From a virus: 55,272 nucleotides of DNA. The stretch covers positions 1 to 55,272 of the IMG/VR virus record IMGVR_UViG_3300031355_000070, one strand, 5' to 3'. Below are positions 19,738-55,272 of this stretch, in pieces. The position numbers were made by a program, and so were the translations under genes. The notes under the pieces were generated by a model. The model searched no databases. It had not been told where the DNA came from and saw only the letters and a list, made by a program, of their open reading frames with translations. How positions within the stretch are numbered: the stretch's first letter is position 1; each line of letters starts with the position of its first letter.

Positions 19738-19845
19738 ATGCGAACTTTTGCCTATATTGTTTTCCATGTTTGTTGGGTAATCATACTCTTGCCGTGTGCT
19801 TGGTATGACATAGTGAGACATTGGATACAAAGGAGAGAGCGATGA
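19738..19845 (+). CDS. Membrane peptide with WYDIVRHWI, paralogue of the 10896 gene
   Basis: 35 residues: hydrophobic helix (5-20), then WYDIVRHWI, then a basic tail QRRER. Shares the nine-residue motif with the peptide at 10896-10988. It overlaps the next gene by ATGA. Confidence 0.5.
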   Translation: MRTFAYIVFHVCWVIILLPCAWYDIVRHWIQRRER

Positions 19846-34821: not shown

Positions 34822-35123
34822 CAGTAGTCACTAATTTTGGAAGGCCGAGAGTATTTCCCTCATGCCAGGGTAACCTGTGGCTTAACAGGCTTACTCCCAT
34901 AGAAGTAAGAGATCCGAATCTCATTAAGCAGTTGCAGAATTATAGCAAGCGCAGAGACATACAGTTGGAAGTTAAAGTAATCGAAGAGGTTAGAGCAGAT
35001 TATTCAAAATTCAAAATACAGCAATTGCGTTCTATGGCTTCGGCAAAGGGAATCTCTGGGGTTTTCAAATTGACGAAGAAAATATTGATTGAAAAATTGG
35101 AGGAAAAAAATGGAATATCCTAA
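34815..35123 (+). CDS. Small protein with SAP/Rho-N-like C-terminus
   Basis: 102 residues from the ATG at 34815, overlapping the capsid stop. The C-terminal DYSKFKIQQLRSMASAKGIS...LTKKILIEKLEE is the helix-turn-helix of SAP/Rho N-terminal domains. Such proteins often follow capsid genes. Likely a head or connector accessory. Confidence 0.6.
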   Translation: MLAVVTNFGRPRVFPSCQGNLWLNRLTPIEVRDPNLIKQLQNYSKRRDIQLEVKVIEEVRADYSKFKIQQLRSMASAKGISGVFKLTKKILIEKLEEKNGIS

Positions 35124-35907
35124 AGTTTTAGATAATGATGATGCCCACCAACCTGAACTGATCTGGCGTGATTTTGCGATGCATAATTTGCATATTCAGC
35201 ACGATAAGCTTCAATGGCTTAAAGATATCGTTGATATCATGGACGCTCATAGATTCGAGGATGACTTCTGTAATACCCCCTGCCTTGTCACCGAAGATGG
35301 CTGTGGAACTTGGGAAATTAATGAAATGCCCAGAACGTCAGGATTAATAGCTCCTGTCTGTAACGATATGGTTAATGGCGTGTTGGTATTGACCACAGGC
35401 GGCGATGCCGATGATTATGGAGAGCTAGTTCAAGCCTGTGAATGCTGGAAGCTATCTAATTGTTATCCGCTATATGCAGAGATTCGATTCAAGCTTAGCG
35501 ATGCCATAAACTCTGCCTCTTGGTTTGGGCTTGTGACAGGAGAATCTTATTTTGTTGCCCCTAATGATTATGTTGTTTTCCTTAATGACGATGGGAACGC
35601 TAATCTGGGTTTTGCAAATGAAATTACTGGAGGAGCACCTACAGCAACAGATACGGGAGTAGACTTGGTGGCACTTGATTGGTACAGACTCGGATTTCAC
35701 TGGGATGGAGCTGGGACTTTACATTGGTTTGTGATTGAAGATGGCGATTATCCTCAGACTGTACTTGCCACAGGCGTACACACTACTAATATTCCTACAA
35801 CAGAACTTCAGCTTGGCTTTGGTATTCAACAGGGAGCAGCGGCTAAGGGAGCAGTATCGATGTATATCGATTACGTGAAATGTGCACAGAAGCGGGTGAT
35901 TGGATGA
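35110..35907 (+). CDS. Virion decoration protein, lectin-like
   Basis: 265 residues from the ATG at 35110 (GGAGG 8 bases upstream). After ~70 residues, a LamG/concanavalin-like sandwich: ECWKLSNCYPLYAEIRFKL, WFGLVTGESYF, LDWYRLGFHWDGAGTLHWF and LQLGFGIQQGAAAKGAVSM. This pattern occurs in phage capsid or neck decoration proteins that bind surface glycans. Confidence 0.65.
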   Translation: MEYPKVLDNDDAHQPELIWRDFAMHNLHIQHDKLQWLKDIVDIMDAHRFEDDFCNTPCLVTEDGCGTWEINEMPRTSGLIAPVCNDMVNGVLVLTTGGDADDYGELVQACECWKLSNCYPLYAEIRFKLSDAINSASWFGLVTGESYFVAPNDYVVFLNDDGNANLGFANEITGGAPTATDTGVDLVALDWYRLGFHWDGAGTLHWFVIEDGDYPQTVLATGVHTTNIPTTELQLGFGIQQGAAAKGAVSMYIDYVKCAQKRVIG

Positions 35908-36022: not shown

Positions 36023-36679
36023 ATGCCTGAATCAGGAGAATACTGTGGAGACTATATTTGCTCTTCAGATATCGATAATTGGGCTAGCGGATCTGATTAC
36101 GATGATTGGAAAGCCATAATCGATAAGGTCGAGCAGCTGATTGACAAGGTTTGCCATACCCATTTCGGAGGGGAAGAATTCGATATCAAGATTAATGGCA
36201 ACGACAAGAACAGGCTTTTCCTTCCACTCAAGTCAGACATTATCACAGTAACTCATGTATATGTTTCTTGCATTGAGATGCCTGATTCCTGGTATACATG
36301 GGATAAGAATTCCATATTCCTTGACCCTTGCACTTCCGGCTCTGGTGGCGCTTTCGATCCGGAACTGATGTATAGACTGGCTTCTGTCTATGAGGCTGGT
36401 ATATTTCCCAGAGGCTATAACAACATCTGGATTCAGGGAACTTACGGCGATGAGGGCGATGTGCCGGAGGCAATAAAGCAGGCTGCCATAATCTTGGCCG
36501 AGTGGGAGAACGATCCGTCGCTTTATTCTAATATCTCTTACAAGAAATCCGAGAAAATAGGAGACTATGCTTATACGAACCTTGCCGGCTCACAGGATGA
36601 GATTCTAACTGGCATCTTGGAGGCTGATCAGTTCCTGCGCCTGTACATCAAGAAGAAGCCCATAATAATGGCACCATGA
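36023..36679 (+). CDS. Head-tail connector protein
   Basis: 218 residues with AAGGAG site. Helical pattern and end segment PEAIKQAAIILAEWENDPSLY...KSEKIGDYAYTN match gp6/gp15-type connector adaptors that sit under the portal. The other neck genes are 13 kb downstream because a cargo cassette intervenes. Confidence 0.75.
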   Translation: MPESGEYCGDYICSSDIDNWASGSDYDDWKAIIDKVEQLIDKVCHTHFGGEEFDIKINGNDKNRLFLPLKSDIITVTHVYVSCIEMPDSWYTWDKNSIFLDPCTSGSGGAFDPELMYRLASVYEAGIFPRGYNNIWIQGTYGDEGDVPEAIKQAAIILAEWENDPSLYSNISYKKSEKIGDYAYTNLAGSQDEILTGILEADQFLRLYIKKKPIIMAP

Positions 36680-36680
36680 T

Positions 36681-37409
36681 ATGGTTATTAATGAGAAAAG
36701 GCATCCATTCCATCCGGAAAAATACGTATTCAAGGCTGAAAAACTAAGCAATCGCTATCTGATAGAAATATTGCCCGATAACAGTTGGAAGGACAAGGAT
36801 TGCTATATCATAGGTGGCGGTCCGAGTCTTGAGGATTTCGACTGGTCTTTGCTCCGGGGCAAGCGTACGATAGGCATAAACAGGGTATTCGAGAAGTTCG
36901 ACCCAACCATCATCTTCTCAATGGACACCAGATATCTAAACTGGATTCTGATAAACCAATACGGTGTTGATGCCCGTTCAAAATTCCAAAAGTCAAAAGC
37001 TTATAAGGTCTGGCTTTGTACGTATAACTGCAAACTGCCAGAAGATATCTTTATCATTCCAGTCTATATGAACTACTCAAAAGGCTTCAAGGCCTTTCCC
37101 ATAACAATGAAAGACGGCATAGGTCATGGCAATAATTCCGGCTACGGGGCTCTGAACCTAGCTGCATGCTTAGGGGTCAAGCAAATCTATCTTCTAGGCT
37201 TCGATATGAGGTGCAATGGCAAAAAGACACACTGGCATAATGGACATAAAAGCCCGATGAAATCGAGCGTGCTAGAAAACTATAAGAAATATTTCAACCA
37301 TGCTGCGAACGAAATCAAAAATAAAACAAAGATTAAGGTGATTAATCTGAATCCTGATTCGGCATTGGATTGTTTTCCTAAAAAAGATTATCATGAGGTG
37401 TTGCAATGA
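36681..37409 (+). CDS. DUF115/MAF-like glycosyltransferase
   Basis: 242 residues. CYIIGGGPSLEDFDW, TIGINRVFEKFDPTIIFSMD, GIGHGNNSGYGALNLAACLG and IYLLGFDM form the Rossmann pattern of the MAF/DUF115 and sialyltransferase-like family that adds nonulosonic acids or related sugars. First gene of the glycan cassette; base composition is still like the phage core. Confidence 0.65.
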   Translation: MVINEKRHPFHPEKYVFKAEKLSNRYLIEILPDNSWKDKDCYIIGGGPSLEDFDWSLLRGKRTIGINRVFEKFDPTIIFSMDTRYLNWILINQYGVDARSKFQKSKAYKVWLCTYNCKLPEDIFIIPVYMNYSKGFKAFPITMKDGIGHGNNSGYGALNLAACLGVKQIYLLGFDMRCNGKKTHWHNGHKSPMKSSVLENYKKYFNHAANEIKNKTKIKVINLNPDSALDCFPKKDYHEVLQ

Positions 37410-37756
37410 AAAAAGGGAAAATATGGGGAACTACCGAGCTATTGTTCTGCAACAAGACTGTTGCTATACATTTTCTTAATATCAAGAAAGGTGGCTATTG
37501 CTCGAAACATATGCATAACTGCAAGTCGAACATATTTTATGTCATTTCGGGAAATTTAAAATTAACTGTCTGGACTCATGAAGGCGTGAAAGATGAGACG
37601 GTATTATGGCAGGGGGAGCAAACCGAGATACAGCCTGGGGTGTTACATCAATTCAAAGCATTGACAGATGTGATGTGTCTTGAGATGTATGAGGTTAAAT
37701 TTCACGACGAAGACATTGAACGAGAATCAATCGGTGGCATGGATAAGGCAAAATGA
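37406..37756 (+). CDS. Cupin-domain sugar enzyme
   Basis: 116 residues, ATGA overlap. KHMHNCKSNIFYVISG (His35, His37) and IQPGVLHQF (His81) are the two cupin motifs, close to the type-II mannose-6-phosphate isomerase-like cupins. It may epimerise or isomerise a sugar for the cassette; substrate unknown. Confidence 0.7.
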   Translation: MKKGKIWGTTELLFCNKTVAIHFLNIKKGGYCSKHMHNCKSNIFYVISGNLKLTVWTHEGVKDETVLWQGEQTEIQPGVLHQFKALTDVMCLEMYEVKFHDEDIERESIGGMDKAK

Positions 37757-38637
37757 AAATTTGCATCTACAGCAAGACACCTTTGGCTGCATCTCCGTGG
37801 GAACTGTACAAGGCGTTGAAAAAGTACACGAATCACGAAGTAGCATATATTAATGAAAGAAACAGATATAATGATGGCCGGATATTCCCTTTTCACTTGC
37901 TCTGGAATTCAAATAATGGCACAGCTAGCAAAGCGTTGGATGAAAGTAATCTCTGGCATGTGCATAATTATTTGAGTCCAGTATTGACCCAGCATAAGAA
38001 TTCGCAGAAAGTGCTTGCCCAGTTCCATTCTCTGCCGCGGCTTGGGAACTGGAGGGAGCTGATGTCATTTGCGGATGCTAAATATACCATTGACCAACCA
38101 TTGCAGCTAAAGGAATATAATCTCAAAGGCCTGCCAAACATAATTGATCCAGATGAATATAGACCTATAAAGAGGCAATCAAAAGTGAGGATAGCTTTCG
38201 CACCGACTACCAGGGCTTCGGCTGGCAGCATAATAAGCAAGGGCTATTATGAAGTGAAGGGAAGATTGGATTTAGTCGCATCAAAAAGAGATGTTGATAT
38301 TGAATGGATCGAGAGGTTACCATATGAGGAAAATTTGAAGCGGAAGCAAAGGTCTGATATACTTATCGACGATGTTGTCACTGGCAATTGGCACAGGACA
38401 AGCCTTGAAGGACTGTGTTTCGGTTGCATTGTGCTTAATCGGAATGAAAGCATGCCGTTTGTTTATGCTGATTTGGATTCACTTGAGGCCACGCTGATAA
38501 ATTTAGTTGATAACGTAGCGAACATAAGATGCCTACAGGAATATTCTCGACTTTGGATTCTGCAAAATTGGCATCCAATTGAAAGATTAAAACCTTACAT
38601 ATCTGCATATAAGGAATTATTAGATGAAAAAAATTGA
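37753..38637 (+). CDS. GT-B glycosyltransferase
   Basis: 294 residues, ATGA overlap. MKICIYSKTPLAASPWELYKAL, LWHVHNYLS, VLAQFHSLPR and RIAFAPTTRASAG then SDILIDDVVTGNWHRTSLEGLCFGCIVL give a GT-B fold with the conserved donor-site Glu (SLEG). Confidence 0.7.
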   Translation: MKICIYSKTPLAASPWELYKALKKYTNHEVAYINERNRYNDGRIFPFHLLWNSNNGTASKALDESNLWHVHNYLSPVLTQHKNSQKVLAQFHSLPRLGNWRELMSFADAKYTIDQPLQLKEYNLKGLPNIIDPDEYRPIKRQSKVRIAFAPTTRASAGSIISKGYYEVKGRLDLVASKRDVDIEWIERLPYEENLKRKQRSDILIDDVVTGNWHRTSLEGLCFGCIVLNRNESMPFVYADLDSLEATLINLVDNVANIRCLQEYSRLWILQNWHPIERLKPYISAYKELLDEKN

Positions 38638-39292
38638 TCTGATAATCCCGACTAGAAATCGTTGGGATAAATTACAGCGATGCTTGAAGTCTATCCCAAA
38701 GCAAATCCCAGGACTTATCCTTAATGTTATTGTTGTATGCGACGGAGACAAAGAAACGGCACGCAAACTCTTGACTTCAAATAATGGTTTAGTAGACCGG
38801 GTAATTTTCGTACGCGATCACAGTGGCTCAGTTTACTGTCGTAATCTTGTGACCCAAACCGTAGAAGACGCACTGCTTTATGCGGTTGATGATATAGAAT
38901 TCTTGCCAAATTCGATTTCGATTGCCGCGGAGAAGATGCGGAAGATTTTTCCAGATGAAGATGGGGTTGTGGGCTTTAAAATAGCAAATGGTCATTCACA
39001 AAGCAAGGCTGGAGTAGCCATTGTCGGTCAGAAATTTTTGTGCCGTTACCCTCAGAAAAAACTTTTCTATCCTAAATATTTCCATTTCTCATGCCAGGAA
39101 ATCGAGTGCCTAGCCGTAAAGCTAGGGAAATTGCATTTTGAAACAAAAGCTGGGATAAATCATTATCATCCGGGTTTCTATAAATCAGAAAGTGATAATA
39201 CTCACGCAGAGGCCAGGATATTCAGAAGGAAAGACCAAAAGATGTCGTTAGAACGTAAAGCAAAGGGATTGATTTGGGGCGATAATGAATAA
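38624..39292 (+). CDS. GT2-family glycosyltransferase
   Basis: 222 residues. IDLIIPTRNRWDKLQRCLKSI and VVCDGDKETA at the N-terminus, AVDDIEFLP as the metal-binding motif, then CQEIECLAVKLG. A GT-A (family 2) enzyme. Overlaps the previous gene by 14 bases. Confidence 0.75.
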   Translation: MKKIDLIIPTRNRWDKLQRCLKSIPKQIPGLILNVIVVCDGDKETARKLLTSNNGLVDRVIFVRDHSGSVYCRNLVTQTVEDALLYAVDDIEFLPNSISIAAEKMRKIFPDEDGVVGFKIANGHSQSKAGVAIVGQKFLCRYPQKKLFYPKYFHFSCQEIECLAVKLGKLHFETKAGINHYHPGFYKSESDNTHAEARIFRRKDQKMSLERKAKGLIWGDNE

Positions 39293-40031
39293 ATGTGATT
39301 ATTATGTGCAGGTATTGTTTAATGTGAAAATGCCTCATCTCGGTAACAATACCAATCCTGATTGGCTTGATTATAGGCTAGAGCTTTTCCAGCGATATAC
39401 ACTCAGATCCTTGCTTAATCAGACTGACAATAATTTTCGTGTCTGGATGACTTGTTTGGAAGAATCGGAAAGTATTCTTACTCCGAAAGTTAAGGCCATG
39501 AAAGCAAAGCATCCGGAAATGGATATTGTTGACTTTGTGTTTGATGAGAATAAAAAGATTTCATATCTTGAGAATAATAACAAATCGCTATATTTCCTGA
39601 AGATTGATTCGGATGATCTATATCATAGAGATGTTGTGAGGAAAACTAAAGAGATATTAAGTCCCATGCACGACATCCCAATGCTCATGTTCTGCAATGG
39701 CTATATATATGATATTCGTACAGGGAAAATGTCAACATTTGTTAGGTGGTCAATACCGAATATTGCCATAAAATACAGTCCTGGAACTTTCAATAAAAAG
39801 AGCTTTTATGATCGTTGCAGATGTGATTTGACGAAAGTAAGGAATCGATTTAATCCAATAATAATCAAAGACAGAATGGTTTGCTGTCTGGACCACAAGA
39901 TGAATCTTCATATTGATCCGAGAAGGAAAGGGATTGAAATTGGCAAGAGAACAGGTCAGGGTTATTCTATACCACAGGATAAAACACCAGGAATACTCGA
40001 AGAATTCGGCATCCAGAGAGTAGCAACATGA
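39285..40031 (+). CDS. Putative rhamnosyltransferase-like glycosyltransferase
   Basis: 248 residues. VLFNVKMPH...DWLDYRLELFQRYTLRSLLNQTDNNFRVWM is the start of the putative rhamnosyltransferase family; KIDSDDLYH is the metal site. Overlaps both neighbours. Confidence 0.65.
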   Translation: MNKCDYYVQVLFNVKMPHLGNNTNPDWLDYRLELFQRYTLRSLLNQTDNNFRVWMTCLEESESILTPKVKAMKAKHPEMDIVDFVFDENKKISYLENNNKSLYFLKIDSDDLYHRDVVRKTKEILSPMHDIPMLMFCNGYIYDIRTGKMSTFVRWSIPNIAIKYSPGTFNKKSFYDRCRCDLTKVRNRFNPIIIKDRMVCCLDHKMNLHIDPRRKGIEIGKRTGQGYSIPQDKTPGILEEFGIQRVAT

Positions 40032-40684
40032 ATATTAGCGTAGTGGTCTTGACACACAGACGGTACAGAGGTTTGGATACTATCTTGAAGGCCTGGCTTT
40101 CTGAAACGCCTGACGTCTGGCTTTGCGACTGTGGCCCTGGCTATAAGACCTCGCTACCAGTGAATACAGTATATATCATCCCTGACTGTGGAAGCAAAGC
40201 ACGCCATGCAGCTGCACTTCTCACTTCGGGGGATTTTGTTATCAAGGCCGATGATGATGTCATGCCGTTGCCAGGATTTGTCAATGATCTCCATAATGGA
40301 TGGGTCAAATCTGGCTCCAAAGGAATATGCGGAGTGATAGGCAGGCGCTTCAATGGGGAAAGTTATTATAAGAATACCGCATTCTGTGCATCGAATAAAG
40401 TTAATCAAATCCAGAAAGTTGATTTTGTAGGAGTTGTCACATTCTCGCCAAGAGAATATCTGGCGTTCGATTTGAAAGGCTGTCAGACCCCGATTGAGGA
40501 CTTGTATTGGCAAATGAAGGTTTTCCCGGGCGTTCCGAAATATGTAGTCCCAACCAAGAGATACAAAAATCTTGAATCATCAAGCGATAGCGGCTGTCTT
40601 TTCCATAACGAGAAGGCAAGGGAAATAAGAGAAAAATTCTATCGGGAATGGTATATAAAGAACTATAAAAAGAAGGCAGTATGA
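40028..40684 (+). CDS. GT2-like glycosyltransferase
   Basis: 218 residues. ISVVVLTHRRYRGLDTILKAWL, IKADDDVMPLPGF (DDD metal site) and PIEDLYWQM. Last cassette gene with core-like base composition; from here the DNA becomes much richer in A+T. Confidence 0.7.
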   Translation: MNISVVVLTHRRYRGLDTILKAWLSETPDVWLCDCGPGYKTSLPVNTVYIIPDCGSKARHAAALLTSGDFVIKADDDVMPLPGFVNDLHNGWVKSGSKGICGVIGRRFNGESYYKNTAFCASNKVNQIQKVDFVGVVTFSPREYLAFDLKGCQTPIEDLYWQMKVFPGVPKYVVPTKRYKNLESSSDSGCLFHNEKAREIREKFYREWYIKNYKKKAV

Positions 40685-41592
40685 AAGTTTTTCTTGTTTT
40701 TCCAATGGCTGATGGTCAGACTGGACCAGCGATAAAGCATGCCTTTGAACAATTAGGCCATGAAATTATTTCTGTTGATGCCAGATTGCAGACAAATAAA
40801 ATATATGAAACTTATCAAGAATTTAAGAGTGATTTAGTTTTCTGTACAAAAACTCCAGAAGTGACTAATCAAATAAGAAACATTAAACAGAAGTTCAATC
40901 CAATTATTTGCATGTGGAATCCAGATGCAAGGAAAAGCATTGATAATTGGGCTTCTTTGTTCCCCCTTATAAAACTAGTTGATTTTCATTTTGTGGTAGA
41001 CATAAACCTTATTGATGATTGGAAAAAATTAAATCCAAATACATTCTGGCTTCCGCAGGGATTGCAGGATGAGATTTATAATAGACCAAAAATCATAACC
41101 AAAATAGATATAAAAAAATATTCTTGTGATGTTTCGTTTTGTGGAGATCGAATTGGATCATATCATAAATTTAGAGATAAATATTTAATTCCTATAGAAA
41201 ATATGAAAATAAATTTCAAACATTGGACTGGAATATATAATGAAGAACATAATAAAATGGTTTCATTATCGAAAATTAATTTGGGTTGTTCTGGCTCCAA
41301 TAATGCAAAAATTCGCACTTCAGTATCCGTAAGGGATTATAAAATTATTGGTGCTGGGGGATTTCTCTTGACTGATTCTGGTGGTGGTTTAGATAAAATA
41401 TTCCCTTGCGAAGGCCACAAAAAAATTTTGGATTATTATAATTCACCAAATGATCTTATAAAGAAAATTAAATTCTGGCTACCGAAAAATGAAGAAAGAA
41501 AAAAAATTGCCGAACGGGGTTATGAATGGATTCATAAAAATGCAACTTACGTTCATAGAATTAAATCAGCATTAGATTATATGGGAATTTAA
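40681..41592 (+). CDS. CgeB-like GT-B glycosyltransferase
   Basis: 303 residues, ATGA overlap. NPIICMWNPDARKS, ISVRDY-like TSVSVRDYKIIGAGGFLLTD, then LDYYNSPNDLIKKIKFWL..NEERKKIAERGYEWIHKNATY: the CgeB/DUF3880 glycosyltransferase ending. Strongly A+T-rich. Confidence 0.75.
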   Translation: MKVFLVFPMADGQTGPAIKHAFEQLGHEIISVDARLQTNKIYETYQEFKSDLVFCTKTPEVTNQIRNIKQKFNPIICMWNPDARKSIDNWASLFPLIKLVDFHFVVDINLIDDWKKLNPNTFWLPQGLQDEIYNRPKIITKIDIKKYSCDVSFCGDRIGSYHKFRDKYLIPIENMKINFKHWTGIYNEEHNKMVSLSKINLGCSGSNNAKIRTSVSVRDYKIIGAGGFLLTDSGGGLDKIFPCEGHKKILDYYNSPNDLIKKIKFWLPKNEERKKIAERGYEWIHKNATYVHRIKSALDYMGI

Positions 41593-42309
41593 ATGAGAAT
41601 ATTAATAATTGGAACTGGAAGAGGAGGAACATCTATCACAAAGGAAGTAATCAAAGGATTGGGAATTATAAAATTTTATTATGGTCCACGTCAAATGGAA
41701 GAAGATTGGAATTTCTTCAAAAGAGAAACATTGCCTGAAAATTATGGTACAAAATTGGTTACCCCAAATCCGGGAGTAAATCCAACTCTTTTCACAATTG
41801 AAAATTTAATAAAGCGAATGAAAGAATATCATGATTTATTTTTAATTTTTTCCTTTAGAGAACCTATTGATACATGCATGTCTAAAATAGTTAGAGGGCA
41901 AAAACATTCTGATGGTGGGGATAAGTATTGGGAAAAAATATCTACCGACGGAACAGCCGATGGAGCTATTTTTGCAGTAAGAAAATTGCATGAAATTTAC
42001 AACAAAATTGTGAAATTATTTCCAGAAAGAATATTAGCAGTAAGAATGGAAAAATTAATATTGAATCCCAAAAGAGAAGCAAATAGAATTGCTAAATTTT
42101 TTGGTGCTAAAATAACTAATAAATCATTAGAATTTTATAAATATAATACTAATCCTTACCAAATCAAAAGATATAATGGTAAGCTAGATAAAAACCAAAT
42201 TGGCTTATATAAAAAATGGGAAATATGTTTTAATGGTTATTTCAAAGATAAGAAAGGAATAATTAATAAGTTGAAAAAAGAATTTAAGGATTTAAAATTA
42301 CCATGTTAA
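41593..42309 (+). CDS. PAPS-dependent sulfotransferase
   Basis: 238 residues, abutting the previous stop. GTGRGGTSIT (7-16) is the 5'-phosphosulfate loop and FSFREPIDTCMSKIVRG (Arg89, Ser97) the 3'-phosphate site. Also ILAVRMEKLILNPKREANRIAKFFG typical of the family. It would sulfate a glycan built by the cassette, using host PAPS. Confidence 0.75.
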   Translation: MRILIIGTGRGGTSITKEVIKGLGIIKFYYGPRQMEEDWNFFKRETLPENYGTKLVTPNPGVNPTLFTIENLIKRMKEYHDLFLIFSFREPIDTCMSKIVRGQKHSDGGDKYWEKISTDGTADGAIFAVRKLHEIYNKIVKLFPERILAVRMEKLILNPKREANRIAKFFGAKITNKSLEFYKYNTNPYQIKRYNGKLDKNQIGLYKKWEICFNGYFKDKKGIINKLKKEFKDLKLPC

Positions 42310-43421
42310 AATGCAATAGATGTCTTATAGATAAAAGTATTCCTGGCGCAGACATTAAAGATGGAATGTGTAGCTATTGTAGAATGCATGATAGATTTGA
42401 AAAACAATATACAATAGATAATATAAAACTACAAAAATTGATTAAAAAAATTAAAAAAACAGGGAAGAGGAGATCATATGATTGCCTTATAGGAATAAGC
42501 GGAGGATGTGATTCTTCATATTTATTATATTTAGCCGTGAAGAAATTCAATCTGCATCCACTTGTTGTTCATTTCGATAATCGATTGAATACGAAATGTG
42601 CAGAGAATAACATGAGGAATCTTGTGGATTTTTTAAATGTGGATTTTATTAGATACCAGTTACCGAAAAAAACATATAATGAATTGAATAGAGCATTCTT
42701 TGAATCCTCCGTAAGCGATGCTGATATACCCAATGATATGGCAATGTTAGCAATATTTAAAAAGGTAGCAAGACAATTTGGGATTAAGTTTATTTTTAAT
42801 GGTCATTCATTTAGAACTGAAGGAAGCAACCCCCTATCATGGACTTATATGGATGCAAAATATATTCAGAGTGTTTATCGTTCATTCTGGAATAAACCAC
42901 TTGTAGGCTTCCCGTTACTTACTGTTTTAGAACAATTAAAAGCGGGTTTTTTGGGAATTAAGGAAATCAGATTATTAAACTATATAGATTATAGAAAAGA
43001 CGATGCGAAGAAAGTTTTAAGAGAAAATGTAGATTGGGAAGATTATGGTGGTCATCATTTAGAAAATAAATATACAGCATTCATATCATCCTATTTTCTT
43101 CCTAAAAAATTTGGTATCGACAAAAGAATTATCGAATATTCAGCCCTTGTCCGTTCAGGACAATTAACAAGGGAAAAAGCAGAAAAAATGCTAAAAAAAG
43201 AACCAAACTTGCCGAATAATATATTAAAGGAAATTAAACAAAAATATTCTAATTTTGATAATATAATGAAATCAAAATCGAAAAAATCATTTCAAGATTT
43301 TGAGACATATCATAAGCTTTTTAAAAGGTATAAATTTCTAATTTGGATTGGCTCTAAACTTCAATTGTTACCAAAAACATTTTATATCAAGTATGCAAAA
43401 AAGAATAGTAATGAAAAATAA
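42303..43421 (+). CDS. N-acetyl-sugar amidotransferase (WbpG-like)
   Basis: 372 residues. CNRCLID and CSYCRMHDRF form an N-terminal zinc site; ISGGCDSSYLLYLA (66-72) is the PP-loop; FIFNGHSFRTEGSNPLSWTYMD is family-specific. WbpG/PseA relatives make acetamidino sugars in LPS or flagellin glycans, with ammonia from HisF/HisH-like partners; none is encoded here. Confidence 0.8.
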   Translation: MLKCNRCLIDKSIPGADIKDGMCSYCRMHDRFEKQYTIDNIKLQKLIKKIKKTGKRRSYDCLIGISGGCDSSYLLYLAVKKFNLHPLVVHFDNRLNTKCAENNMRNLVDFLNVDFIRYQLPKKTYNELNRAFFESSVSDADIPNDMAMLAIFKKVARQFGIKFIFNGHSFRTEGSNPLSWTYMDAKYIQSVYRSFWNKPLVGFPLLTVLEQLKAGFLGIKEIRLLNYIDYRKDDAKKVLRENVDWEDYGGHHLENKYTAFISSYFLPKKFGIDKRIIEYSALVRSGQLTREKAEKMLKKEPNLPNNILKEIKQKYSNFDNIMKSKSKKSFQDFETYHKLFKRYKFLIWIGSKLQLLPKTFYIKYAKKNSNEK

Positions 43422-44340
43422 AAAAATAGCTCATTTTTCACCCGAAGCCTTCAGTTCTCTTTTTGAAAAATATATTAATGATTATACATTCTTGCATAAC
43501 CGTTGCGATAAGGATGTGGATATAATATATTGCGGAAGCATGTCTCAATTAAGCAAGGCGATGATAGCCAAGGAGATTTTCAACAAGCCTCTAATATGTT
43601 GGGTTTGGGACATTCCCTATAATTGGAGGGAATGGTGCAGATCAGATAATGAAATTCAAAATAATCAGAGAAGAGAAGCGTATGTTAAAAAATCGATTCT
43701 GAATCTCCGAAAATGCGATAAAGTAATTAGTGCAAGCAAATATACTCAAAGAATACTGAAAAAAAAGTTCAATATAGATAGTGACCAGATTTATTTTTAT
43801 ATAGATACTGAAGAATTGGATTCAATTCATATAGATTCAAAAAAAGGGCATATTATTCAAATAGGTCGATTTGCTCCCAATAAAAGATTTGATATTTCGA
43901 TTAGAGCGATGAAAGGAATAGATCGAAAATTTATTTGTATTGGCATTGGTAGATACAAAAAATTAGAGGAATTATCTCATAAATTAAATGTTGATGTTGA
44001 TTTTTATTGTAATCGGGAAAATAAAGTTAAAATCAAACTTCTGAAAGAGTCAGAAATTTTAGTATCACCTTCTATTTTTGAGGGTTGGGGCATGACTCCG
44101 ATTGAGGCTCTATATTGTAAGGTGCCAGTTTTATTGAATGATTTAGAAGTATTCAAAGAGATATATGGAGACAATGTACTCTATCATAAAAAGGATAATG
44201 TTGAAGACATGAGAGAGAAGTTACGCTATTTATTGAGTGATAAACAGCTTCAGAGGAAAATAGTAGAGAGATGCCGTCCTCTGATTTCTGAATTTACAGT
44301 TTCCAAATTTGCTAAGAGATGGGAGAAAGTAATTGAGTAA
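43411..44340 (+). CDS. GT4-family glycosyltransferase
   Basis: 309 residues from the ATG at 43411; in-frame ATG at 43393 also possible, no clear ribosome site. IIQIGRFAPNKRFDISIRAM, CIGIGRYKKLEEL, and ILVSPSIFEGWGMTPIEAL with the E-x7-E motif and VPVLLNDLEVFKEIYGDN are the GT4 core. Confidence 0.85.
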   Translation: MKNKKIAHFSPEAFSSLFEKYINDYTFLHNRCDKDVDIIYCGSMSQLSKAMIAKEIFNKPLICWVWDIPYNWREWCRSDNEIQNNQRREAYVKKSILNLRKCDKVISASKYTQRILKKKFNIDSDQIYFYIDTEELDSIHIDSKKGHIIQIGRFAPNKRFDISIRAMKGIDRKFICIGIGRYKKLEELSHKLNVDVDFYCNRENKVKIKLLKESEILVSPSIFEGWGMTPIEALYCKVPVLLNDLEVFKEIYGDNVLYHKKDNVEDMREKLRYLLSDKQLQRKIVERCRPLISEFTVSKFAKRWEKVIE

Positions 44341-44995
44341 TTTAGACATGGCAACTAAGTTCTGTATTGATTTTGGTATAGGACTGGAAGAAGCAGAGAG
44401 CAAACTTCGAGGGATTTTCCCAGCAGATGGAGGCGGATATTTTAATGAGAATGGGAGCAGACCGGGGAACTGGCGATTGCTTTATTTTTCTGTTGTTTCA
44501 TGCCTATTGAAAGCTGCAAAAAATATTCTTGAACTTGGGACTGGCCTAGGAAAGACAACTGCTGCGCTATCTGTATTATTCCCAAATGCAACAATCTATA
44601 CAATTGATATTCCCAAGGATGATAATGATTATAAAGCATTTGCATGGCGGGGTCAATGCAAAGAAAATATGGAATATTTCAAGAAAAATATAAGCAAAGA
44701 TAATATTATTTTTATCGAAAAAAATAGTTTCTTTTTGCCATTTCTAAAGCTTCCCAACACGTTTGATTTAATATGGATTGACGGAGGTCATTATTATCCT
44801 ACAGTAGCATGGGATATTATGTTTTCCTATAATAGATTATGCTCAAAAGGCTTTATGTTTATGCATGATTATGGCCTAAAATTGGACGTCAAGCCTACTG
44901 TAGATTATATAAACAATCTAATAGAAGAAGATATAAAATTTCTTCCTTCCAAGATGACAGGAAGTCTTTCTACTGCATGGCTCAGAAAGGCATGA
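44333..44995 (+). CDS. Class I SAM-dependent methyltransferase
   Basis: 220 residues from a TTG with GGGAGA upstream; the ATG at 44348 is an alternative. NILELGTGLGKTTAALSVLFP (motif I), YTIDIPK and FDLIWIDGGHYYPTVAWDI are the Methyltransf_24 pattern. Likely methylates a sugar in the cassette's product. Confidence 0.75.
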   Translation: MSNLDMATKFCIDFGIGLEEAESKLRGIFPADGGGYFNENGSRPGNWRLLYFSVVSCLLKAAKNILELGTGLGKTTAALSVLFPNATIYTIDIPKDDNDYKAFAWRGQCKENMEYFKKNISKDNIIFIEKNSFFLPFLKLPNTFDLIWIDGGHYYPTVAWDIMFSYNRLCSKGFMFMHDYGLKLDVKPTVDYINNLIEEDIKFLPSKMTGSLSTAWLRKA

Positions 44996-44999
44996 TGAA

Positions 45000-45788
45000 A
45001 TGAAAGTAGGGTTTATACAAGTTTTTAATGAAGTCAATTGGATTGGCTATGCGATAGAACAAGCCATGAATTTCTGCGATGAGCTAATTGTTTGCGAGGG
45101 ATCTCAATTCGTTGCCTTCCCTGATATTCCAGAAAGATCTGATGATGGCACATTAGACATTATAAATGATAAAGTGAAGCAGTATCCTAAGAAGATAAAA
45201 ATTATCAAAACTATAAGAAAATATAATAATTATAGAAAAAATCAATGTGCTAATTTTAATCTGGCACTTGATGATTGTAAAATTGGAGATTATTTCATTC
45301 ATCTTGATGCAGATGAATTTTTTACTGATGAATGGATTACAAAAGTAAACGAACTAATGAGAGAAAATAAAATTGATATTATTAATACACTTGGCTATAG
45401 ATTTATGTTTAGTTTTAAGTGGCGATTTGATTTTGGTAAAATACAGCCACGCTTTGTTATTGTTAAAAAAATTAATGGACTTCATTTTAGGCCTACCCAT
45501 CATTACGTAAATCCAGGCAAACATATAATAACGTTTCCCAAAAATAGTCATTATCATTATTGCTGGCTAAAACCGCAAGAGAGAATGCACATAAGAATGA
45601 AAACATCTGGGATGTATCCGAATATGCTGAATTGGTTTGATAAAAATTGGGATAATTTCAAATTGGAAAATGGAAAAGAATATTCAGGCTATTCAGGCAA
45701 ATTTAATTTGCATAGATATGAAGGCAATCACCCTGAAATACTAAATAATCACCCCTGGCGACACGTTGAAGATATAAGAAAATTATGA
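45000..45788 (+). CDS. GT2-like glycosyltransferase, paralogue 1
   Basis: 262 residues. FNEVNWIGYAIEQAMNFCDELIVCEGS, HLDADEFFT (DxD) and a C-terminal HPEILNNHPWRHVEDIRK. The ending and overall layout match the next gene, so they are tandem paralogues of beta-1,4-GlcNAc/GT2-like enzymes. Confidence 0.7.
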   Translation: MKVGFIQVFNEVNWIGYAIEQAMNFCDELIVCEGSQFVAFPDIPERSDDGTLDIINDKVKQYPKKIKIIKTIRKYNNYRKNQCANFNLALDDCKIGDYFIHLDADEFFTDEWITKVNELMRENKIDIINTLGYRFMFSFKWRFDFGKIQPRFVIVKKINGLHFRPTHHYVNPGKHIITFPKNSHYHYCWLKPQERMHIRMKTSGMYPNMLNWFDKNWDNFKLENGKEYSGYSGKFNLHRYEGNHPEILNNHPWRHVEDIRKL

Positions 45789-46618
45789 AAATATTGGGTG
45801 GGATGACAACGTGGAATAATTTTGAATTCTTTAAATATTCATTAAAACAAGCACTGGATTTTTGTGATGAAGTAATTGTAGTTGAGGGTTGTCATTCAAG
45901 GCAATATCCGAAACATTCTACTGATGGAACAGTTGAATATTTAAATTCTTTAAAACATTCAAAGCTAAAAGTATTAGATTTTGATTATAAGAAATATGGC
46001 TTAGAAGGGAAAAGATATGATTTAGTTCAATGCAAGATATGGAATTTAATAAACAGTTCCTTTAAATCATGGAAGCCGGGAAATTGGTTAGTTCGATGGG
46101 ATGATGATAGATTTTGGTTTAAAAAGGATTTAGAAAAAGTAAGAGATATTCTTAAAACTACAAAACAGGACAGAGTGAATTTTAGGGAAAGATTTTTTAC
46201 ATATAATTTTAGATTCAATCTTATTCGAGGGCCTGGACATAGATTTGACAGGATTACAGAAGGATGTTTTTATACGCCAATTGTTAATTTGTGTTATGAA
46301 AATAGCACACGCTATCAAGATATGCCAATACAATCAGAGATCATTGTTTTTCATTATACTTCCGTTAAGAAATCCGAAAGAATGAATGCTCGCTGGATTA
46401 TGTCTGTTGAGAAAGGAACAGAAAGTTCAAGAACACGATTCAAGAAATGGATGAACATTAAATGGAAAAATGATGATGATTTTTTAAAGTACAGAGATAC
46501 TATCGCTTTTATATTAGGAGGCGATCCCAGCAATGTTAATATTTATAATGGAAAACATCCTGAAGTATTAGACAGCCATCCTTGGCGATATATTGAGGAT
46601 ATAAGGAAAATAAAATGA
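45785..46618 (+). CDS. GT2-like glycosyltransferase, paralogue 2
   Basis: 277 residues, ATGA overlap. FEFFKYSLKQALDFCDEVIVVEG, VRWDDDRFW (DDD) and HPEVLDSHPWRYIEDIRK. Paralogue of the preceding protein; they may act in succession on the same glycan. Confidence 0.7.
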   Translation: MKILGGMTTWNNFEFFKYSLKQALDFCDEVIVVEGCHSRQYPKHSTDGTVEYLNSLKHSKLKVLDFDYKKYGLEGKRYDLVQCKIWNLINSSFKSWKPGNWLVRWDDDRFWFKKDLEKVRDILKTTKQDRVNFRERFFTYNFRFNLIRGPGHRFDRITEGCFYTPIVNLCYENSTRYQDMPIQSEIIVFHYTSVKKSERMNARWIMSVEKGTESSRTRFKKWMNIKWKNDDDFLKYRDTIAFILGGDPSNVNIYNGKHPEVLDSHPWRYIEDIRKIK

Positions 46619-46626
46619 GGTATTAA

Positions 46627-47175
46627 ATGCCAGATATAGAACGACCTGCATTGTTTTATGACAAAAATTTTAATAAAACGGGATGGAAGAAACCCGAAAT
46701 GATACCTCGACATCAATATGTTATTAATGAATTGAAACGACTTAAAGTAAAGACCGTGCTTGATATTGGATGTGGAATAGGAACACTTCTTTCGCTCTGT
46801 CGGGATAGTGGTCTTACGTGTCATGGGTTTGATTTTAGTTCTGTAGCTATTAATATCTGTAAAAAATATAATAAATTAGATAATGTATGGGTTGGGAATG
46901 CTTTGGATAAAAAGAATTATGAAGGTGAATATGATGCTTATTTGGTCATAGAAGTTTTAGAGCACATTGAAAGGGATTTTGATGTTATCAAAAACCTGAG
47001 GTCAAATATTCCATTTATATTTTCTCTTCCAAATTGGGCTAATGTTGGGAGTAGTCATGTAAGATGCTTTAGTTCTGATTTTGCGATAAGGCAGAGATAT
47101 GGTGAAATTGTTGATATAAAAAGCATTAAAAGATTCGGAGCTCGCAGAGTTATTATAAGCATAACAAAAATATAA
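46627..47175 (+). CDS. SAM-dependent methyltransferase
   Basis: 182 residues. VLDIGCGIGTLLSLCRDSG (motif I), HGFDFSSVAINICKKY, YLVIEVLEHIERDFD and PFIFSLPNW: a class I (Methyltransf_11/23-type) enzyme, UbiG-like. Confidence 0.8.
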   Translation: MPDIERPALFYDKNFNKTGWKKPEMIPRHQYVINELKRLKVKTVLDIGCGIGTLLSLCRDSGLTCHGFDFSSVAINICKKYNKLDNVWVGNALDKKNYEGEYDAYLVIEVLEHIERDFDVIKNLRSNIPFIFSLPNWANVGSSHVRCFSSDFAIRQRYGEIVDIKSIKRFGARRVIISITKI

Positions 47176-47240
47176 AAAATGCAAAAAGACAACAATATTG
47201 AAAGAATATAAATTATTAAAAATAACGCAATGAAAAGGAC

Positions 47241-47661
47241 ATGAAGCTATTAGACATAAGAGACATTTCGATTATAGATTCTTTCCCTTTGTATAATTGC
47301 AAAAAAGATTCTTCCTTTACCAAATATTTTAATGGTAGCAATACATGATATGTCTGTAACAATAGGAAGATTTCAAACAGATTGCCTTCTTGGGAAAAAA
47401 GGAGAGCTTTATTATCAAGAAGGACGAATTGAGTTTGACAAGTGGGAATTAGGGCAGTTCTTAACTGACGAGAAATGGTTCGTTAAAGAATATTCATGGC
47501 TTGATAAGGACGAATCTCAATATGATATTAAACAAAAGGCTACTTGGTATCCATATCAATATATTTATAGCGAAAATAATATTCCTAATAAAGAATTAGG
47601 AAGTTATGGGCCTACTATTGGATTTGCCTTTCAAATTGAAAAAGAAACTGGGAAAAACTAA
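47241..47661 (+). pseudogene. Frameshifted gene in glycan cassette (methyltransferase-type start)
   Basis: A 35-residue frame from 47241 starts DIRDISIIDSFPLYNCKK, like DIVIIDAFSLYDCKK at the start of the methyltransferase at 48961. It stops at 47348, but after the A6 run at 47300-47307 the +1 frame reads KKILPLPNILMVAIHDMSV and runs to 47661. One lost or gained A would join them into a protein of about 139 residues lacking the SAM-binding core. Likely a decayed, internally deleted methyltransferase; a functional 109-residue protein from 47332 cannot be excluded. Confidence 0.5.
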
Positions 47662-47663
47662 AT

Positions 47664-48308
47664 ATGATTAATAAAAAAGAGATAAAGATTGTATTCCCTG
47701 AGAGTGTGAAAAAATATATGAGGCTTCAATGTAACGATGAGATTAGACTTTATAATCATTTGATAGAGATTGAGAAAATAGAAAAATACTTAAAAGATTT
47801 AAAGCCTAAAATAGCATTGGATATGGGTTCGGGAATAGGGCGTGCGAGCGTTTTTTTCTTCAAATATTTTAATTGGACAGATACTCTATTTATAGAGGCT
47901 GACGGGAATTCAGGTGAAATACAGCTATCAGGGATAAGAAATGGGGAAAAAGAATTTTATAATTCTCTAAAAGCAACAGAATTGTTTTGTAGAGCGAATG
48001 AGATTGAGAATTTAAAATTATTTAATCTTGAGAAGCATACATGGAAAGAATTAGATTGCAAACCCGATTTAGTTTATAGCTTTGCCGCATTGGGATTTCA
48101 TTGGTCTTTTAATCAATTTTTAATAGACATTTATCCTTTTTTGGAAAGTAAATGTATTTTAATTTTTGGATTAAGAGGTAAAACACAAATAAAGAGTTGG
48201 ATTGATAATCAAGTAAAAAATATTAATTTTGACGAATATCGAATTATAGAGTTTTTTTTTGATGCAAAAAATAAAAAAGGAGGATTTATAATTTTGGAGA
48301 AAAAATGA
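47664..48308 (+). CDS. SAM-dependent methyltransferase
   Basis: 214 residues. IALDMGSGIGRASVFFFKYF (motif I), LFIEADGNSGE and DLVYSFAALGFHWSFNQFL: sugar O-methyltransferase-like, class I. Very A+T-rich. Confidence 0.7.
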   Translation: MINKKEIKIVFPESVKKYMRLQCNDEIRLYNHLIEIEKIEKYLKDLKPKIALDMGSGIGRASVFFFKYFNWTDTLFIEADGNSGEIQLSGIRNGEKEFYNSLKATELFCRANEIENLKLFNLEKHTWKELDCKPDLVYSFAALGFHWSFNQFLIDIYPFLESKCILIFGLRGKTQIKSWIDNQVKNINFDEYRIIEFFFDAKNKKGGFIILEKK

Positions 48309-48964
48309 AGCCTTTATACATTACTTATTCAAATGAATTGGAACCATTTAATAGCATGGCGAATGAGCTTTGCCATAAAGTTAAAAAACTTAATTGTGGC
48401 GATTGCATTCATTTGCATCAATCTAAACCAGGAGCTGAAACGAATTTTTCTATTGCTATGTATTCTATGATTTTTGCCGAAGTTAAAAAGATTATAGTTA
48501 AACGCCCTATAATAATTCTTGATGCTGATCATATATTATTGAAGCCGATAATAGAAATTTTTAATGGTGATTGGGATGTTGGCGCTGTATATCGTAGTAA
48601 ATGTATTAATAAATATGGTAGGCATGATTATTGTAGCGGATTAGTGTTATTAAATAATCGACGACCAGACCGTATAATAAAATTCTGCTATGATTGGTTG
48701 CATAGCATGTCTTCATATATACTATCTCCAGGGTTCTGTCCAGAAGGATTGAAACAACAAGGTTGGCAAGATACATGGTGGAATGATCAAGCATCATTGA
48801 ATGAAATTATTACTGTTGATGAAGTAACATTTGGAAAGATTTATACCATTAAGGGCTATCGTGTTTTGCCTTTGCATTGGAATAAATATACATTACCAAG
48901 CAAAGAAGCCGTTATCTTACATCTTAAAGGAGGTAGAAAAAAGCAATGGAAAAAATTAATATGA
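48305..48964 (+). CDS. Glycosyltransferase-like protein (GT-A, DxD)
   Basis: 219 residues, ATGA overlap. RPIIILDADHILLKPI is a DxD metal site after a beta strand; DYCSGLVLLNNRRPDRI and VILHLKGGRKKQW resemble the GT8/galactosyl family end. Assignment by motif only. Confidence 0.6.
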   Translation: MKPLYITYSNELEPFNSMANELCHKVKKLNCGDCIHLHQSKPGAETNFSIAMYSMIFAEVKKIIVKRPIIILDADHILLKPIIEIFNGDWDVGAVYRSKCINKYGRHDYCSGLVLLNNRRPDRIIKFCYDWLHSMSSYILSPGFCPEGLKQQGWQDTWWNDQASLNEIITVDEVTFGKIYTIKGYRVLPLHWNKYTLPSKEAVILHLKGGRKKQWKKLI

Positions 48965-49482
48965 AAGATATTGTTATTATAGATGCTTTTTCTTTATATG
49001 ATTGTAAAAAATTAGTCCTGAATGTTGGTTGTGGGAAAGGCAGAATAGATTATCATCTTGCAAAAATGGGTTATAGAGTTTATGCTATTGATATTAAAAG
49101 ACAGAATGCTTGGAAGGATAATAAGCAATTGACTTTTCATTTGGCAGACATCTTTGATTTATCAAGTTTTCCCATAGCGTCTGCTCCCATTGTCATATGT
49201 AGCCAGGTTTTAGAGCATCTGAAGGATTATAGAAAGGCTCTGGCAAACTTATTGAAATTGACAGAAATCAGATTAATTTTGACTGTTCCCTTTAAGAAAT
49301 CTTTTTATAGCCCAGAACATGTTAATTTCTGGGATGATAATAATGTAGGAGAATTCATTGAATTATGCAAACCTTACTCTGTGTCCATTTCCAAGATAAT
49401 TACTAAACCAGAGGATATAAGAAGAAAACAATGTGATTATTTAATAGTAATAGATAAGAGGCAAAAAAATGTCATACAATAG
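48961..49482 (+). CDS. SAM-dependent methyltransferase
   Basis: 173 residues from the ATG at 48961 (ATGA overlap); ATG at 48946 lies inside the previous gene. LVLNVGCGKGRIDYHLAKMG (motif I), YAIDIKR, VICSQVLEHLKDYRKAL and ILTVPFKKSF. Last gene of the cassette; its start overlaps a remnant-like sequence at 47241. Confidence 0.75.
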   Translation: MKDIVIIDAFSLYDCKKLVLNVGCGKGRIDYHLAKMGYRVYAIDIKRQNAWKDNKQLTFHLADIFDLSSFPIASAPIVICSQVLEHLKDYRKALANLLKLTEIRLILTVPFKKSFYSPEHVNFWDDNNVGEFIELCKPYSVSISKIITKPEDIRRKQCDYLIVIDKRQKNVIQ

Positions 49483-49789
49483 CCTGTTAATAAACAAAGT
49501 CGATTTGATAACCATAACAACAATCGCATGGGGTGAAACGGCAGAGGCGGTGATTCCGAATGTCGTCTGCCGGATCATGTATACGAATAAGCTTATCCGG
49601 AACTATCAGGGAGAGGAAGTACTGTCATTCGCAAAGCTGTTCTTCAAGCCAGCCCAGATGATCAACCATATGATGAAGGTCCGGATAACTGGTCCGCAGG
49701 ATGCGTCGAAGATAAAGCATCCGATAATCATGATTACGAGACCTCAAAATTCAACAGCGATACATCATACGGAAGTATGGATAGCATAA
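49469..49789 (+). CDS. Head-closure / neck protein
   Basis: 106 residues. AEAVIPNVVCRIMYTNKLIRNYQGEEVLSFAKLFF is a pattern of head-closure (stopper) proteins. It overlaps the last cassette gene by 14 bases and restores core-like base composition, marking the 3' edge of the insertion. Confidence 0.65.
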   Translation: MSYNSLLINKVDLITITTIAWGETAEAVIPNVVCRIMYTNKLIRNYQGEEVLSFAKLFFKPAQMINHMMKVRITGPQDASKIKHPIIMITRPQNSTAIHHTEVWIA

Positions 49790-50027: not shown

Positions 50028-50423
50028 ATGGCTGATAAGACTGGATTTTCGGTTGATTTTTCAGACTTCGATAAGAAGTTCATGAAGATTGTTACTACCG
50101 CCATACCGTCTGCTGGAGCTAGAGGGCTTAAGAAGTCGGCAGCACATCTATTGAGAGATGCGATATTGGAGAGGCCAACAGCACCCAAGAAGACTGGTAA
50201 TTTGAGAAGGACGCAGAAAGTAGAAGAGCCGGTCTTGAGGCCTGACATATCGGTCGAAGCTGGATTCACAGCAGACTATTCAGCAGCAGTACATGAAATG
50301 CCAAGTTCTAATAATTTTACTGAGCCTGATAGCGGACCGAAATACTTGGAATCGAAGCTAATACGTAATAAAGAGAAGTATATGAAGATAGCAGCGGATG
50401 AAATACTTGGTGAGGCCAAATGA
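50028..50423 (+). CDS. Neck/minor tail protein (HK97 gp10-like)
   Basis: 131 residues. GLKKSAAHLLRDAILERPTAPKKTGNLRRT and VSVEAGFTADYSAAVHEM are classic HK97 gp10 family features. It bridges head and tail. Confidence 0.8.
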   Translation: MADKTGFSVDFSDFDKKFMKIVTTAIPSAGARGLKKSAAHLLRDAILERPTAPKKTGNLRRTQKVEEPVLRPDISVEAGFTADYSAAVHEMPSSNNFTEPDSGPKYLESKLIRNKEKYMKIAADEILGEAK

Positions 50424-54343: not shown

Positions 54344-55253
54344 AATGTCTATAGCATATGTCATTGAGAATTATATCGATGAGGACACTCTTGATTCTGT
54401 GAGCTCCCATGTCAGCCCATTCTACGAAATGTATAACATCTATAATACCAGGCCGTCCCTGCCTCTGAGATTCGAGGGCGTTGGTTCTGCGGGCAATCCG
54501 GAATGGATATGTATCGACATGGGGACTGGAAGCGGGTCTACTCCTCATGTCACATTTGTTGGAGTATTCAATCATAACTTGACTACCAGCCCGGAAAGAT
54601 TTGCCTTGAAAGGCTGTGCCGATGGCTGCGAATCTCTAGGATCTGGTGGTTGCGACTGGGAAGCCGCTCCTGCGTGGACTATCGATTTGCGTGATAGAAT
54701 TCTGTCTGATGGAATTTGCTCTGATAAGTATGAGAATATATTCGAGAACTCCTGCAAGAAAATAGATGTGACTTCGCAATATTATAGGCTTGATTTCATC
54801 GATATTGCGAACCCAGACGGCTATGTCGAGGCAGGGGAAGTCGTCTTGAGCGAGTGGTGCAAGTTCGGGGATAACGTCCATTTGCAGCCAGGGCGTGCAG
54901 ACGGCCCAATGTTCTTTACAGGCAATCAGAAGACCTATTATGGGCAGGACTGGGCTGCCTATTATTCCTATGCAGAACATTTCACGCTCACTTTTAAGAA
55001 TATTAATGATGTCAATAACCGCGATGAGCTCCAATTATTCCTTATCCGAGTCCAGCAGAATGGCGGAAAATTCATCATTATTCCAGATGATGCGAGCGAC
55101 TGCTATCAGGCTGGATACAAGGCAAGATGCTATTATGTGATTATTGAGAACCAGTCGGATTATGCCAACAGGCTTGTGCATGGCTGGACAAAAGAGCTTC
55201 GGGAGTGGACTCTGGAGCTCAAGACTTTGACTTCGGGGATTAAACTGCTGTGA
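54148..55253. repeat. Long near-identical repeat (copy 2)
   Basis: Partner of 613-1721. Differences are scattered, many at third codon positions, as expected for two alleles under purifying selection. Confidence 0.9.
54345..55253 (+). CDS. Tail protein following the tape measure (copy B)
   Basis: 302 residues, nearly the same protein as that at 813-1721 (about ten substitutions by eye, for example in IDEDTL for IDMDTL and ANRLVHG for AQRLVHG). Full length, same start context. Function as for copy A: probable distal tail component. Confidence 0.7.
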   Translation: MSIAYVIENYIDEDTLDSVSSHVSPFYEMYNIYNTRPSLPLRFEGVGSAGNPEWICIDMGTGSGSTPHVTFVGVFNHNLTTSPERFALKGCADGCESLGSGGCDWEAAPAWTIDLRDRILSDGICSDKYENIFENSCKKIDVTSQYYRLDFIDIANPDGYVEAGEVVLSEWCKFGDNVHLQPGRADGPMFFTGNQKTYYGQDWAAYYSYAEHFTLTFKNINDVNNRDELQLFLIRVQQNGGKFIIIPDDASDCYQAGYKARCYYVIIENQSDYANRLVHGWTKELREWTLELKTLTSGIKLL

Positions 55254-55260
55254 GGATAAG

Positions 55261-55272
55261 ATGGCAGGCGTA
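55261..55272 (+). CDS. Start of a second propeller-type tail protein, cut by window edge
   Basis: ATGGCAGGCGTA encodes MAGV, the same first four residues and spacing as the gene at 1729. Only 12 bases are visible. Confidence 0.5.

Follow-up and report, generated by a model that had tools for sequence, protein, structure and literature searches.

A fixed neck-gene locus with a conserved MptE/Maf-like gene and exchangeable glycan-type genes in a lineage of siphovirus-type phages

Glycosylation of the phage particle has been proven in few phages. The capsids and tails of the mycobacteriophages Che8, Corndog and Myrna are reported to be glycosylated by phage enzymes (Freeman 2023, cited in PMC11256854 and PMC12363180), and an account of pelagimyophages describes a hypervariable 'host recognition cluster', rich in glycosyltransferases (GTs), beside the neck genes (PMC7029224). 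Maf enzymes with a Maf_flag10 domain, described as resembling Cst-II, glycosylate Ser/Thr residues of flagellin (PMC11339370), and acetamidino-modified sugars are reported from Campylobacter flagellar glycosylation (PMC3068675). Here we analyse a viral record of 55,272 bases (IMG/VR record IMGVR_UViG_3300031355_000070; the whole record is referred to as the window), and in particular a cassette of glycan-type genes at positions 36681 to 49482, between the head-tail adaptor and head closure genes. An earlier note, made from the sequence of the window, had proposed this cassette as a candidate undescribed system, which was half right. As far as these sources describe them, GT-rich variable islands at neck genes and virion glycosylation are already known (PMC7029224; PMC11256854, PMC12363180), but the open-access papers searched do not describe the arrangement seen here, in which a neck locus of fixed position pairs a conserved MptE/Maf-like starter with tailoring genes that are exchanged; this does not prove that no description exists.

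A fixed locus between the adaptor and closure genes

The + strand of this siphovirus-type genome carries, in order, terminase, portal, protease, capsid, adaptor, closure, Neck1 and tape-measure genes. The ends of the record (1-1740 and 53578-55272) repeat each other with 90-96% identity and have differing tape-measure C-termini, so the record most likely represents one entire, circularly permuted genome of about 53.5 kb whose closure joins two strain variants. The upstream flank of the cassette is the head-tail adaptor gene (36023..36679, +; phrog_442, E 2.5e-12), 83-85% identical in the closest relatives, and the downstream flank is the head closure/connector gene (49469..49789, +; phrog_3881, E 1.3e-3), 67-84% identical in the same comparison. 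A Neck1/HK97-gp10-like gene (phrog_5, 4e-9) follows at 50028. Between the flanks, from 36681 to 49482, lie 18 + strand open reading frames (ORFs) of 109-372 amino acids. Most have overlapping starts, and neighbours overlap or almost touch except at a 156-bp gap (47176-47331). The ORF list and profile matches thus uphold the coordinates, the shared strand and the flanking genes given in the earlier note.

Relatives were found by searching viral contigs with the capsid and closure proteins, so that the cassette itself was not selected for. Both flanks were recognised in 21 of them, and a further contig with an unrecognised adaptor, 28837_3314, brings the set to 22; removal of four near-duplicates left 19 distinct genomes, window included. 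The adaptor-closure junction is filled in all 22 relatives, by 2.8-12.1 kb, compared to 12.8 kb in the window. A homologue of gene 1, the first gene of the cassette, stands at the adaptor end of the junction in every one (22/22), as it does in incomplete contigs that cover this end. When the records of seven relatives were searched whole, no further gene 1 match was seen outside the locus. The cassette had been described as inserted between neck genes, and relatives with an intact connector/closure junction had been envisaged; none of the 22 has an empty junction. Because all relatives are occupied, an insertion is not inferable. The junction thus holds an old, fixed locus with exchanged content, of which the neck cassette is one version. 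In Methanobacterium virus Drs3 no cassette separates the capsid and Neck1 genes, but at 28% capsid identity this virus is too distant to serve as evidence of an insertion event.

The GC (guanine plus cytosine) fraction of the cassette is 0.36-0.44 up to 40684 and then 0.28-0.35, with flanks at 0.43-0.45; the low-GC block, at 40681-49482, comprises genes 7-18. This fall, together with the lack of any DNA similarity between the window and sequenced phages, would fit an assembly artefact in which foreign DNA was joined into a phage contig. However, a chimera is very improbable, because relatives carry the same locus and starter genes and because gene 18 overlaps the closure gene by 14 nt at the 3′ junction. 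The genome is also otherwise complete, with near-repeated ends. Predicted promoters and terminators within the cassette showed no excess over shuffled expectation, and tRNA and Rfam scans gave no match. A genome scan with the capsid found one contig, at 62%, in a Desulfobacterales metagenome-assembled genome, which is weak evidence as to the host.

A conserved first gene and exchange of its neighbours

Gene 1 (36681..37409, +), the conserved putative starter with likeness to MptE, Maf_flag10 and sialyltransferases, matches phrog_4603, 'alpha-2;3-sialyltransferase', across model positions 1-173 of 178 (E 4e-32). Its match to PF01973 (E 8e-7, 29.4 bits) is below the cut-off of 34.6 bits, which is passed by the homologues from four of seven relatives. 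The AlphaFold2 (AF2) model is confident, with a predicted local distance difference test score (pLDDT) of 90.7, and its second fold match is the sialyltransferase ST6GALNAC2 (E 0.056). Judged by its profile matches, and by a fold search that is itself ambiguous, gene 1 probably belongs to the MptE/Maf_flag10/phrog_4603 group. Its ratio of nonsynonymous to synonymous change (pN/pS) is 0.12-0.26, compared to 0.15 for the capsid, with synonymous sites near saturation in most pairs, and these values indicate capsid-like purifying selection. In one relative (L018:13414-16692) the homologue is a protein of 1093 residues in which the gene 1 domain occurs twice, in tandem.

Homologues of gene 1 occur in 61 sequenced phage records. 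The genomic surroundings were viewed in seven of these, and so describe a pattern and not a count. In D3, the homologue orf7 lies between capsid and adaptor, and a methyltransferase precedes gp10. In P7, the homologue hdmB is part of a head-morphogenesis operon with the GT gene hdmD. The Caulobacter phages CcrColossus and CcrBL9 have the homologue directly after a tail protein, and genes for a GT and/or a methyltransferase come after it. In virus S20 it is found with a GT, downstream of the prohead protease and two unnamed genes, and in Domovoi near tail and lysis genes.

Past gene 1 the locus is far less constant. Of 16 window genes beyond gene 1 and the cupin, none recurs in the two closest relatives, whose flanking proteins are 75-79% identical to those of the window. 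Genes 2, 3 and 4 occur in 12, 11 and 11 of the 19 genomes, respectively. Genes 3 and 4 match distant relatives; gene 3, which is 53-62% identical among the genomes carrying it, reaches about 60% identity to its counterparts in relatives with only 47-49% identity in the adaptor. The order gene 1-cupin-GT-GT is kept in most cupin-bearing genomes, and one clade keeps gene 1-cupin-GT-GT-C5-(methyltransferase)-sulfotransferase-C9-GT. In one contig (L023:4595-7497) the cupin stands before gene 1, the opposite of the usual order. Genes 7-18 had no homologues, at the threshold applied in clustering, in any of the 18 remaining genomes, although weak generic-methyltransferase matches occur. At the same junction, relative L005 has three GT2s, LicD, an epimerase, GT7C, a B12-radical SAM protein and a methyltransferase. 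Among 88 non-core genes tallied in relatives, GT2s, methyltransferases, sulfotransferases and Glyco_trans_1_2 are the commonest families, and epimerases number three. Overall, genomes share more content the closer their relationship (Spearman 0.50; 171 pairs, not independent), which points to exchange superimposed on descent. By these comparisons, the lineage keeps gene 1 and exchanges much of the remaining locus, probably by recombination. Traces of exchange in the window itself are the GC break inside the cassette and a methyltransferase scar (47241..47306, +), the N-terminal remnant of a gene paralogous to gene 18 (54.5% over 22 amino acids, 83% over 36 nt). The earlier note had overlooked the GC break and the scar, as well as the family of gene 1 and the occupied junction in every relative.

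Predicted enzymes of the cassette

Family assignments are matches to Pfam, NCBIfam or PHROGs profiles, and enzyme activities are predicted from family. Gene 2 (37406..37756, +) encodes a WbuC/mannose-isomerase-like cupin (PF07883, 8e-7; TIGR04366 WbuC, 6e-7, below cut-off). Gene 3 (37753..38637, +) has no Pfam match and a predicted GT-B fold; its AF2 model is of modest confidence (pLDDT 72.5), with BshA/GT4 as the best PDB match (E 1.3e-10). Gene 4 (38624..39292, +) is a GT2 glycosyltransferase (PF00535, 1.7e-7), and gene 5 (39285..40031, +) belongs to a putative rhamnosyltransferase family (PF11316, 1.4e-10). Gene 6 (40028..40684, +) is GT2-like, with a weak match (PF00535, 1.3e-3) and 50% identity to one relative, L053. 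The low-GC block opens with gene 7 (40681..41592, +; GC 0.31), a GT-B glycosyltransferase (PF13524, 3.5e-17), followed by the sulfotransferase gene 8 (41593..42309, +; PF13469, Sulfotransfer_3, 4e-8; PF00685, 1.6e-5) and gene 9 (42303..43421, +), a WbuX-family N-acetyl sugar amidotransferase (TIGR03573, 217.7 bits against a cut-off of 203.2; PDB 8wex, 1.8e-8). A search of 50,697 phage records found no WbuX amidotransferase. Three other IMG/VR viral contigs (L008, L009 and L010) do encode WbuX amidotransferases, at 45-46% identity. Gene 10 (43348..44340, +) is a GT4 glycosyltransferase (PF00534, 4.8e-26) whose true start, by inspection, is probably the ATG at 43411.

Further along are the methyltransferase gene 11 (44333..44995, +; PF13578, 8.8e-12), the GT2 glycosyltransferase gene 12 (45000..45788, +; PF00535, 7e-8) and its paralogue gene 13 (45785..46618, +), which clusters with gene 12 and has no Pfam match. 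Gene 14 (46627..47175, +) is a methyltransferase (PF13489, 7e-12). Gene 15 (47332..47661, +), a short ORF with no Pfam or PHROG match, is perhaps the tail of a lost gene. Gene 16 (47664..48308, +) is methyltransferase-like, with a weak match (PF05219, 5e-3). Gene 17 (48305..48964, +) has no family match, but by inspection resembles a GT-A glycosyltransferase, with a DAD motif in its translation. Gene 18 (48946..49482, +) is a methyltransferase (PF08241, 7e-13). No tail-fibre gene is among the 18 ORFs. The profiles thus confirm the GTs, sulfotransferase, amidotransferase and cupin named in the earlier note. Of the four methyltransferases it listed, those at 44333, 46627 and 48946 are well supported, while that at 47664 has only the weak match.

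The note had also called the cassette close to a complete set for an unusual glycan, while lacking nucleotide-sugar synthesis. The second point stands for the families tested, as no match to Epimerase, NeuB (nonulosonic-acid synthase) or GATase (PF00117) is present in the record. The first was too strong, since no donor synthesis, acceptor or glutaminase partner for gene 9 was found; the partner was sought as PF00117, and the host could supply it. Flippase PF01943 and the lipid-phosphate/sugar-phosphate transferase PF02397 have no match in the record either, so the membrane flippase for gtrABC-like O-antigen conversion is absent as PF01943, GtrA-type flippases not having been searched. Cassette proteins have no strong transmembrane segment (highest 19-residue Kyte-Doolittle mean, KD19, 1.61), and no membrane glycosyltransferase of the gtrABC kind is thus seen among them.

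Phage glycosyltransferases can also act on phage DNA (PMC7029224), and the cassette might do likewise, as in T4-like phages. The record, however, has no gene of the thymidylate synthase/hydroxymethylase family (PF00303), and the cassette is placed among late structural genes. Neither sulfation nor amidination is a known DNA hypermodification, which also counts against DNA glycosylation, and we consider it extremely unlikely. Elsewhere in the window, 17120-17992 gives a weak radical SAM match (E 1e-3) close to a DUF5131 protein at 18297-18962, and 19821-20651 encodes a protein of the RlaP RNA-repair-type nucleotidyltransferase family.

A putative virion glycan and its relation to described systems

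We judge it slightly more probable than its opposite that the fixed locus glycosylates virion proteins, with gene 1 starting and the variable genes extending and decorating an exchangeable particle glycan. The cassette would be co-expressed with capsid and neck proteins late in infection. Gene 1, as a small cytosolic MptE/Maf/sialyltransferase-type enzyme, would use a nucleotide sugar made by the host as donor and place the first sugar on a virion protein. Going by their families, genes 3-7, 10, 12, 13 and perhaps 17 would lengthen the chain, which would be decorated by the methyltransferases (methylation), the sulfotransferase (sulfation) and the WbuX amidotransferase (amidination). The finished glycan would coat the particle and change adsorption, binding by other molecules, or stability; we infer the glycan, its acceptor and such a benefit from gene content, position, gene 1 conservation and the exchange of much else. 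This swapping of content would resemble that of bacterial O-antigen and flagellin glycosylation loci. The lack of a flippase, sugar-phosphate transferase or membrane protein favours a cytosolic acceptor and host-made donors, and a virion protein is the favoured acceptor because of the position in the operon and the parallel placement in unrelated phages. One candidate, a conjecture from position, is the protein encoded between capsid and adaptor at 35089..35907 (+), which is conserved at 40-67% in relatives and has a lectin-like C-terminal domain (PF22237, 1.1e-5, just below cut-off).

Several points weigh against this reading. The glycan and its acceptor are predictions from the genes, and the enzymes might act instead by completing lipid-linked chains made by the host. 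P1 pmgO, which we equate with P7 hdmB by gene order, was reported as non-essential in a knockdown screen, as were pmgP and pmgQ (PMC10695390), which suggests that its product is dispensable for assembly, at least in P1. Searched against PDB sequences, the gene 1 profile finds CstII-type sialyltransferases only, at sub-significant E 0.03-0.1. The closest solved fold is MptE (8sd5; E 2e-4), with a modest template modelling (TM) score of 0.42-0.47. MptE is a pterin diphosphokinase, and gene 1 might then have a role of its own in morphogenesis or metabolism, for instance as an MptE-like enzyme that binds pterins or nucleotides, with nothing more than a permissive site for diverse cargo downstream of it. 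The P7 homologues are indeed named as head-morphogenesis genes, and three relatives have another variable block of metabolic genes in the head operon (L018:2661-6059, L019:4339-8102, L024:3805-5842), which is absent from the window. It encodes a zinc alcohol dehydrogenase, thiamine pyrophosphate-dependent E1/transketolase-type pairs and a short-chain dehydrogenase, as well as a TauE sulfite exporter in L018. This block may be a source of unusual sugars for the neck glycan, or it may be cargo with no relation to it. A separate role is nonetheless distinctly doubtful, as most identifiable cargo in relatives is of glycan type, the gene 1 homologue of L014 is fused to a GT2 domain, and the gene order following gene 1 is conserved as described above.

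The main rival to virion-protein glycosylation is that the cassette alters the host surface glycan late in infection. Its enzymes would elaborate a chain that the host itself makes and exports, and the change would block superinfection or stop progeny from re-adsorbing to debris. The GT-rich hypervariable islands beside the neck gene gp14 of pelagimyophages have been interpreted in this way (PMC7029224). O-antigens and exopolysaccharides typically carry methyl, sulfate, amidino and LicD-type modifications, and the low-GC distal block looks as though acquired elsewhere. Against this, the cassette has no export or membrane component, it sits within the virion operon, and gene 1 homologues lie beside capsid or tail genes in unrelated phages; late timing would also leave little time for surface remodelling. 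The earlier note had left both targets open, and virion modification is here judged the best explanation, with host-surface modification rather unlikely.

We also put forward, tentatively and with more doubt than confidence, that gene 1 is the founding member of a class of enzymes, widespread in phages but so far unrecognised, that glycosylate proteins. Unrelated tailed phages (D3, P1/P7, Caulobacter phages and this lineage) would carry such a gene amid virion genes in order to start a glycan on the particle, and in this lineage the rest of the locus would be an exchangeable 'serotype' cassette that gives each phage a differing methylated, sulfated or amidinated coat. If true, a conserved starter with homologues in P1 and D3 would make virion glycosylation testable in E. 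coli K-12, annotation would gain a marker for virion glycan loci, and O-antigen-like gene sets without export genes in phages would be explained.

Like the pelagimyophage island, the neck locus is variable, rich in glycosyltransferases and inside the structural region, adjoining a neck gene. That island is described as about 45 kb long, with tail-fibre genes, in T4-like phages and with no conserved starter gene in the description (PMC7029224), whereas the neck locus has no tail-fibre gene, spans 2.8-12.8 kb and belongs to a siphovirus-type genome. With Che8, Corndog and Myrna it shares phage-encoded glycosyltransferases and a proposed coating of virion proteins, but their glycosylation is reported as experimentally proven, while that of the neck locus is a prediction from its genes. 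The GT genes of Maravista, an F1 relative of Che8, are near the genome 3′ end and not at the neck, and the tailoring set of the neck locus is far larger than those described for glycosylated mycobacteriophages. D3 orf7/orf13, P7 hdmA-D (P1 pmgN-Q) and the gene 1-GT-methyltransferase runs of Caulobacter phages likewise have a gene 1 homologue that lies amid genes for capsid, neck or tail and has a GT or methyltransferase gene nearby, but with fewer enzymes, at about 23-34% identity and with putative functions. Compared to Maf flagellin glycosyltransferases, gene 1 is without the extra Maf domains and its PF01973 match is below cut-off, and the record has no nonulosonic-acid synthase. The locus resembles Maf enzymes and flagellar glycosylation islands in this sub-threshold likeness to PF01973, a domain described as similar to Cst-II, and in the pairing of a putative starter enzyme with variable tailoring genes.

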